NCBI GenBank assembly: GCA_036375715.1
Contig: DASVBS010000060.1
Coordinates: 1-64,000, forward strand
Origin: Longimicrobiaceae bacterium
Lineage (GTDB): Bacteria; Gemmatimonadota; Gemmatimonadetes; Longimicrobiales; Longimicrobiaceae
Direction of reading: 5' to 3'
DNA length: 64,000 nt
Below, one piece after another: positions 58,051 to 61,557 of the stretch; the first letter of the stretch is position 1; the number at the start of each line of letters is the position of its first letter. The translations under genes and the position numbers were made by a program. Under the pieces are notes generated by a model. That model saw only the letters and a list, made by a program, of their open reading frames with translations, searched no databases and had not been told where the DNA came from.

Positions 58051-60132
<2,082 letters not shown>

Positions 60133-60140
60133 TATTTAAT

Positions 60141-60390
60141 TTTGAATTTTGAGTTTTGAATTACGAATTACGAATTACGAATTACGGCAGCAGCGTGCCT
60201 GTCACCGACGGCGCCGCCCCGATCATTGCGAGCTCGGCCTCTGTCATCCTGAGCAAAGTGAAGGAGCGCGGGCGAGCAGGATCTCGGTTTGCGATCCTTC
60301 GCTGCGCCGCTCCCGGGCTCCGCTCAGATGGCAGGCTGACACAATTCCAGATTGACAACCTGTAATTCGTAATTCGTAATTCGCAATTCA
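60141..60390. repeat. palindromic intergenic element bounded by inverted heptad arrays
   Basis: The 286-nt gap between transketolase and transaldolase is almost filled by one structured, non-coding element. Left edge: three TTTGAAT-type heptads, then GAATTAC four times in tandem (60158-60185). Right edge: GTAATTC three times plus the variant GCAATTC (60362-60389), which is the exact inverse complement. Inside, 60241-60334 is an imperfect inverted repeat: CTGTCATCCTGAGC on the left faces GCTCAGATGGCAG on the right, with AGGATC/GATCCT at the tip. The AT-rich arrays stand out sharply from the surrounding DNA. No open frame in it looks like a gene. Confidence 0.85.
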
Positions 60391-60417
60391 TAGCATCCCT
60401 CTCTCCCCCTTTGACCC

Positions 60418-61557
60418 ATGACCACTAGCCCTTTGCAGGAGCTCACCCGCCTGGGACAGAGCGTGTGGCTCGATTACATCCGGCGGGGAATTCTGGACAA
60501 TGGCGAGCTGGAGCGGTTGATCCGCGAGAGCTCGGTACGGGGGGTCACCTCGAACCCCGCCATCTTCGAGCAGGCCATTGCCCGCAGCGATGACTACGAC
60601 GACGAGCTGGAGATGCTCGCGGCGGAGGGGGCGGAGGCGCTCGAGGTGTACGAGACGCTCGCCATCGCGGACATCCAGCGCGCGGCCGACCTCTTCCGCG
60701 GCATTTACGACGAGACCGGGGGGACCGACGGCTTCGTCTCGCTGGAGGTCTCCCCGGAGCTTGCTCACGACACCGAGGGAACCATCGCGGAGGCGCGCCG
60801 GCTGTGGTCGATGGTCGACCGGCCCAACGTCATGATCAAGGTGCCTGGCACCGACGAGGGCCTGCCCGCGATCGAGCAGCTGCTCGCCGAGGGGCTCAAC
60901 ATCAACATCACCCTGCTCTTCTCCCTGGAGGGCTATGAGAGGGTGATGGAGGCCTACCTGGCGGCTTTGGAGCGGCGTGCCAGCGCGGGACAGCCGCTGG
61001 ACCGGATCGCTTCGGTGGCGTCGTTCTTCGTTTCGCGGGTAGACACGGCGGTGGACAAGTTGCTAGAGGCGAAGGCGGCGAACGCGACCTCGGACGAGGA
61101 GCGCGCGCACATACGCTCGCTGCTCGGCCGTGGTGCCATCGCCAACGCCAAGCTCGCCTACCGTCGTTTCCAGGAGATCTTCGGATCGCCGCGGTTCGGC
61201 GCCCTCCGCGAGAAGGGAGCCCAGGTGCAGCGGCCGCTCTGGGCCAGCACCTCCACCAAGAACCCGGAGTACAGCGACGTGCTCTACGTGGAGGAGCTGA
61301 TCGGCCCGGACACAGTGAACACGATGCCGTTGGCGACGCTGGAGGCCTTTGCCGATCACGGCATCGCCCAGCGCACCGTGGACCAGGACATCGAAGGGGC
61401 GCGCCGCGTCATCTCACAGTTGGAAGAGCTGGGCATCGACTTCGCCGGGGTCACCCACCAGCTGCAGGTCGAAGGGGTGGAGAAGTTCGTCGAGCCCTTC
61501 CGGCATATGCTGGAGAAGATCGATGAGAAGTTGACCGAAGTCGCCGCCGGCGACTGA
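60418..61557 (+). CDS. tal: transaldolase
   Basis: Transfers a dihydroxyacetone unit between sugar phosphates in the non-oxidative pentose phosphate pathway. 379 residues, the length of the longer (actinobacterial-type) Tal class. [39 protein letters not shown], the Schiff-base lysine at Lys141 in [19 protein letters not shown], and [15 protein letters not shown] are present. [26 protein letters not shown] is also typical. The gene follows the palindromic heptad element by 28 nt, so its 5' leader would include part of that element if transcribed through. Confidence 0.95.

Follow-up and report, generated by a model that had tools for sequence, protein, structure and literature searches.

Inverted heptad arrays between tktA and tal mark a probable gene-less, IVS/IVP-type fold-back element in a Longimicrobiaceae genome

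The intergenic feature between tktA and tal of a Longimicrobiaceae bacterium is, in our assessment, probably a gene-less fold-back element of the IVS/IVP type located outside rRNA, with ends made of inverted AATTACG arrays. The gene-bearing form of the same family would, with similar likelihood, carry an IVP/S23 gene (PF05635) between like arms, the known instance so far being the 23S rRNA IVS. Inverted heptad brackets form a genome-wide class that is directed inward and biased to gene 3' ends, and in several phyla inverted heptad arrays specifically bracket IVP genes; gene-less brackets like the one at tktA-tal would fall into the same family as the IVP-bearing elements.

Results

The window, i.e., the whole stretch of 64,000 nucleotides analysed (contig DASVBS010000060.1 of assembly GCA_036375715.1), contains a site between tktA and tal where four GAATTAC units oppose four inverted units, one of them a variant, at a distance of 176 nt:

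58051..60132, plus strand: transketolase gene (Pfam PF00456/PF02779/PF22613; open reading frame list)
60130-60132, plus strand: transketolase stop codon, with the first GAATTAC unit 25 nt further on
60140..60160, plus strand: outer period-7 units TTTTGAA TTTTGAG TTTTGAA, leading into the left array (sequence)
60158..60185, plus strand: left arm, four GAATTAC units, all exact (sequence)
60186..60361, no strand: inner segment of 176 nt, differing between elements (sequence comparison of brackets)
60236..60337, no strand: imperfect palindrome within the bracket, belonging to the TCATCCTGAGC...GATCCTTCGC family (fold z; partial genome matches)
60362..60389, minus strand: right arm, three exact GTAATTC units and one GCAATTC (sequence)
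60418..61557, plus strand: downstream transaldolase-like gene (PF00923, E 2.6e-84)

The arms (60157-60185 and 60362-60390) measure 29 nt each and are 97% complementary, which bears out the initial annotation of a palindromic element with inverted GAATTAC arrays at both ends; its description of the right-hand units as exact inverse complements holds for the three GTAATTC units and fails for the fourth, GCAATTC. The claim that such arrays exceed chance is likewise upheld, with six matches to the 14-mer GAATTACGAATTAC at up to two mismatches in the window, all at the tktA-tal element, against 0.03 expected. As RNA, positions 60130-60400 are predicted to fold at -114 kcal/mol (z -7.6, matched by 0/200 shuffles), in agreement with the very long stem that had been proposed. 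An inner imperfect palindrome is supported in its core (60236-60340, fold z -3.2, 0/200 shuffles) but is weaker than had been claimed: the whole inner part (60186-60361) reaches a fold z of only -1.3, and the arm-to-arm alignment scores 16 against a null q95 of 23, no higher than for other inner sequences. Ten further genomic sites carry copies, 73-87% identical, of portions of the inner segment, chiefly of its TCATCCTGAGC...GATCCTTCGC core. No Rfam family was matched in a search of the window, and the tktA-tal bracket encloses neither an open reading frame nor a convincing IVP remnant.

Across the genome (4.37 Mb in 87 contigs, with roughly 5% missing), GAATTACGAATTAC occurs in 188 forward and 194 reverse copies and its reversed control in none, which settles in the affirmative that the word is multi-copy. 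A 1.53-Mb sample, its contigs picked partly for carrying matches, holds 47% of all 14-mers and 46 GAATTAC...GTAATTC brackets, and we therefore estimate about 100 brackets in the whole genome. All 46 are directed inward and none outward, and none overlaps a called gene in the sample, where 1302 genes were called with a custom hexamer-based script. Measured against gaps of 60 bp or more, brackets favour convergent gaps (19/46 vs. 101/718, p 2e-6) and avoid divergent ones (3/46 vs. 157/718, p 0.009), with a median distance of about 12 nt past the stop codon. The arrays have a sharp outer edge, starting AATTACG, and a variable inner one; in the first 0.78 Mb of the sample exact tandem runs numbered 41 at period 7 and 0-4 at periods 4-6 and 8-12. 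Unit numbers of the two arms are uncorrelated between brackets, and homogenisation of the arms by equal growth was rejected on this ground. Intrinsic terminators, with their short G+C-rich stem and U-tract, are not indicated either: a simple scan picked out 0/61 of the 3' ends that carry an element, and T is not enriched outside the arms. No target-site duplication is visible, the compared Chitinophaga and Akkermansia relatives being too diverged for clean empty sites, and the brackets contain no enzyme able to cut or copy DNA.

Inner sequences are mostly particular to their copy, 28 of the 46 being without a similar sequence elsewhere in the sample. The arrays are the outer, defining part of the element class and the inner part its variable one, contrary to the earlier proposal of a MITE inserted beside heptad arrays. 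The nesting of a TCATCCTGAGC-type palindrome within heptad brackets is confirmed, since six of its seven exact copies in the sample lie inside brackets, whose share of intergenic DNA is about 4%; it is one among several nested layers, and the brackets of Odoribacteraceae and Prevotellaceae visibly show these layers in a concentric arrangement. The inner part of Chitinophaga solisilvae brackets is a near-perfect palindrome, both arms of which co-vary between copies, and dispersed Chitinophaga copies are 84-97% identical, with internal sequence common to them. Several different palindrome families are seen nested concentrically in one heptad bracket at L361 192-776, L362 4638-4961 and G000 C67:10830-11076.

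Two additional heptad classes, each with 8 pairs in a single direction, are present in the same genome (G000). GGATAACGGATAAC, the word of the first, never lies within AATTACG brackets; the second has the related words GCCAGGA/AGCCAGA.

GTTATCC...GGATAAC brackets: G000 C60:216616, C4:7026, C65:97038, C65:246515, C53:192263, C76:33937, C64:33650, C22:48695
GCTAGAA...TTCTAGC brackets: G000 C4:46451, C65:26266, C65:205696, C65:215134, C53:212729, C14:10976, C22:101654, C22:110598

Scanning for brackets with longer insides identified one, C76:31921-32468, whose AATTACG arms enclose a 132-aa frame matching PF05635, 23S_rRNA_IVP (E 1.5e-25; TIGR02436), the small four-helix bundle protein also called S23. 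It is the sole bracket-enclosed gene of the 1302 called and the sole IVP gene found in the sample; such genes are scarce, with 2 in the genome vs. about 100 gene-less brackets. The latter contain no convincing IVP remnant (one best E of 0.003, the others >0.5), which leaves descent from an IVP-bearing copy hypothetical. In a comparison covering 13 genomes and 14 controls, the controls being model organisms, PF05635 is present in 10/10 array-rich genomes and absent from 14/14 control genomes; it is further found in the family members G007 and G008, picked as relatives, and is absent from G022, which has no arrays.

A search of plasmids with an IVP protein as query, which avoids the bias of loci fetched via their arrays, returned 20 loci from Cyanobacteriota, Bacteroidota, Chloroflexota and Spirochaetota, several of them related Nostoc loci, so that the 20 are not all independent events. 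The inverted-repeat score of the flanks is at least 23 in 20/20 (median 53), compared with a median of 15 and a maximum of 23 for random intervals (n=396) and a median of 15 and a maximum of 33 for neighbour genes. Period-7 runs of at least 12 occur in 18/20 of the loci and runs at other periods from 4 to 12 in 0/20; neighbour genes show period-7 runs in 12/40, partly from adjoining the same arrays. The heptad words vary (TAATTCG, CAATTCG, GGAAGTC, AAAATTC, TAGTGAT, CTGGTCA and others), and Nostoc IVP genes are bracketed by the AATTACG heptad itself, but pointing the other way. Five further IVP loci comprise two clear cases (L442, L443), one degenerate (L439) and two without heptads (L440, L441), which resemble clostridial sequence classified as phage. 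Among viral contigs sampled by their IVP match, where L444 duplicates L411, period 7 is seen in 9/12 and other periods in none. Taken over all IVP loci found by protein similarity, 29/37 have period-7 arrays beside the gene and 0 have arrays at periods 4-6 or 8-12; heptad arrays are absent at some IVP genes, namely at L440, L441, L451 and L452.

Two side observations concern the surroundings of IVP genes. The clostridial-looking loci L440, L441 and L451 have other short palindromes around the gene, with heptads absent. IVP genes also lie repeatedly within defence operons (hsdS/hsdR, DISARM/BREX-like, cas genes):

L439: Monoglobus hsdS-hsdR
L431: Planktothrix drmD/pglX
L432/L436: DUF1156/Swt1
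L429/L434/L442: adjoining cas1

Gene order at tkt-tal is conserved in the family, and in nine relatives the spacer there measures 16-137 nt and lacks the element; two of the nine (G007, G002) carry other inverted repeats. Because relatives lack the element at tkt-tal, and also show plain short gaps opposite a Chitinophaga copy, it behaves like inserted DNA. GAATTACGAATTAC itself is absent from 98/98 relatives. An octad, GTGAGTGC, is abundant in the sister genus g8 (G007, G010, G013-G020), reaching about 200 exact copies in a genome, at period 8, and an array of it is also found at the tkt-tal site of L205.

Beyond the family, an exact 21-mer is found, among the matches listed, in cyanobacteria, Bacteroidota, Acidobacteria, Chloroflexota, Akkermansia and candidate phyla, several of these genomes having high copy numbers. 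Phage as the vehicle was rejected, with just 30 stretches bearing the 21-mer among 2.9 million viral contigs. The inward direction dominates in Chitinophaga (21 FR vs. 1 RF) and likewise among Prevotellaceae/Odoribacteraceae heptad brackets (14 FR vs. 1 RF). At one Chitinophaga site (L111 3953-4079 vs. L280 and L281) bracket and flanks are common to three species and the inside is replaced; Akkermansia G221 and G192 have flanks 91-94% identical and a bracket interior that, judged from coordinates only, appears different. Several relatives carry canonical terminators at one site where the Chitinophaga element sits, and at another site a plain gap of 40-67 nt, without a hairpin, is all that relatives show; replacement of terminators was accordingly set aside, the first site being suggestive of it and the second contrary.

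Discussion

We weighed the IVS/IVP-type reading against four other accounts of the brackets. An origin as REP/BIME sequences mobilised by a RAYT transposase would fit their palindromic, intergenic character and REP-like preference for 3' ends, yet Y1_Tnp (PF01797) has no match in the genome (roughly 5% missing) and is also absent from the word-sharing Chitinophaga solisilvae, Planktothrix, Akkermansia and Prevotellaceae genomes, which makes this account extremely improbable. The linked RAYT-type transposase suggested in the initial annotation is accordingly not found, and of its mobile-element reading the multi-copy, palindromic, intergenic and insertion-like aspects stand while the RAYT/REP connection is not supported. 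A MITE-like nature, with the arrays as terminal inverted repeats offering several sites to a trans-acting transposase of conventional type and the IVP gene as a passenger, strikes us as unlikely. The sharply defined outer edge, the constant inward direction, the high identity of dispersed Chitinophaga copies and one Chitinophaga site where the gap in relatives is short and plain speak for it; it is opposed by the lack of a visible target-site duplication, as far as the compared, strongly diverged relatives can show, by the 28/46 inner sequences unique within the sample, by the fact that no transposase was noticed in brackets up to 4 kb and by the IVP gene being the sole gene inside a bracket in the sample.

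Selection for an RNA hairpin that functions at the 3' ends of genes, be it a bidirectional terminator, an RNase III site or an mRNA stabiliser, whose sequence turns over while the hairpin stays, would account for the favoured convergent 3' ends and the short median distance past stop codons, the co-varying arms of Chitinophaga copies, the canonical terminators of several Chitinophaga relatives at one element site and the other palindromes of G007 and G002 at tkt-tal. We consider it quite unlikely nonetheless: a U-tract is absent, relatives do without a hairpin at the other Chitinophaga site, some elements sit past a separate canonical terminator, and most relatives have no such array at tkt-tal. 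Even less favoured, and in our view very unlikely, is a neutral product of mutation in which 7-nt units are favoured by replication slippage and inverted copies arise by template switching, with no protein involved. Many bacteria have an excess of heptameric repeats, with polymerase slippage as the proposed cause (PMC4692102), and the two arms differ in array length independently of each other; against this, word, direction and outer edge are identical in several phyla, IVP genes are specifically bracketed, and the word is missing from 98 relatives.

The tktA-tal element has the long-stem inverted termini and heptad-built arms of IVS/IVP elements and holds no IVP/S23 frame; its designation as an IVP element is therefore weakened, and the statement that it is built like one is unaffected. 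rRNA IVSs devoid of the S23 frame exist. In Coxiella, the 23S rRNA IVS combines terminal inverted repeats, an S23 frame and excision by RNase III, tandem GACAGAT heptamers precede the S23 frame and vary between strains, and mobility via the product of the frame was proposed in 1993; S23 of Xanthomonas campestris is a homopentamer of solved structure (PMC4990558). The brackets thus resemble the 23S rRNA IVSs of Coxiella and Leptospira (PMC4990558) in their long-stem inverted termini, heptamers (Coxiella), optional S23/IVP gene and scattered distribution, but differ from them in being intergenic, numbering about 100 per genome and mostly lacking a gene.

Other repeats share part of this design. 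Terminal inverted repeats as in MITEs are present at tktA-tal, whereas a common internal sequence is found in Chitinophaga and not here; like MITEs and REP/BIME-RAYT elements, the brackets are short palindromic intergenic repeats preferring 3' ends, but they come without a RAYT, without a visible target-site duplication and with inner sequence mostly specific to the copy. Tandem 7-nt units between genes, as in heptameric intergenic repeats (SSR/STRR), are also present, and cyanobacterial STRRs are themselves intergenic tandem heptamers. Xanthomonas genomes contain 70-75 inverted GGGAATC heptad pairs each (PMC4692102), likewise close, convergent and intergenic, in a genus from which S23/IVP is known (X. 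campestris); their word is a different, G-rich one, and that study treats G-quadruplexes and makes no connection to IVP. The TAACTGA heptamers of Beggiatoaceae, cyanobacteria and Bacteroidetes, three phyla for which no mechanism was given, are likewise intergenic tandem repeats of distant lineages, but are direct repeats near start codons among which inverted pairs are very rare (PMC4679880).

For the IVS/IVP-type reading we propose that the transcribed arms would close a long stem, like the stems that RNase III cuts in rRNA IVSs, and that the IVP protein may recognise the heptad arms and aid copying in trans, including that of gene-less elements. Copying may proceed via RNA or a single-stranded hairpin, unit number would be altered by slippage, and insertions directly past stop codons would persist because they are the least harmful. 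PF05635 resembles Avd, the accessory protein that diversity-generating retroelements require for retrohoming (PMC10053308). A far-reaching extension, which we offer tentatively and hold to be doubtful, is that bacterial period-7 intergenic repeats are the arms of one mobile fold-back superfamily, in which an IVP pentamer would bind the arms as RNA or ssDNA with one subunit per heptad and direct a reverse transcriptase to the hairpin as Avd does, rRNA IVSs being copies that landed in rRNA.

The single tktA-tal element would thus be an IVS-like, heptad-armed variant, and what is new is the link between IVP and heptads; a search covering part of the literature returned no paper that relates heptad repeats to IVP genes. 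Reports of tandem heptamers in unrelated bacteria have come without a mechanism; that such arrays bracket IVP genes provides a first handle on the origin of these repeats. The function and spread of IVP/S23 have been open for decades; the bracketing joins both questions and makes both testable, and the IVP-heptad link could explain why one 7-letter word recurs across several phyla.
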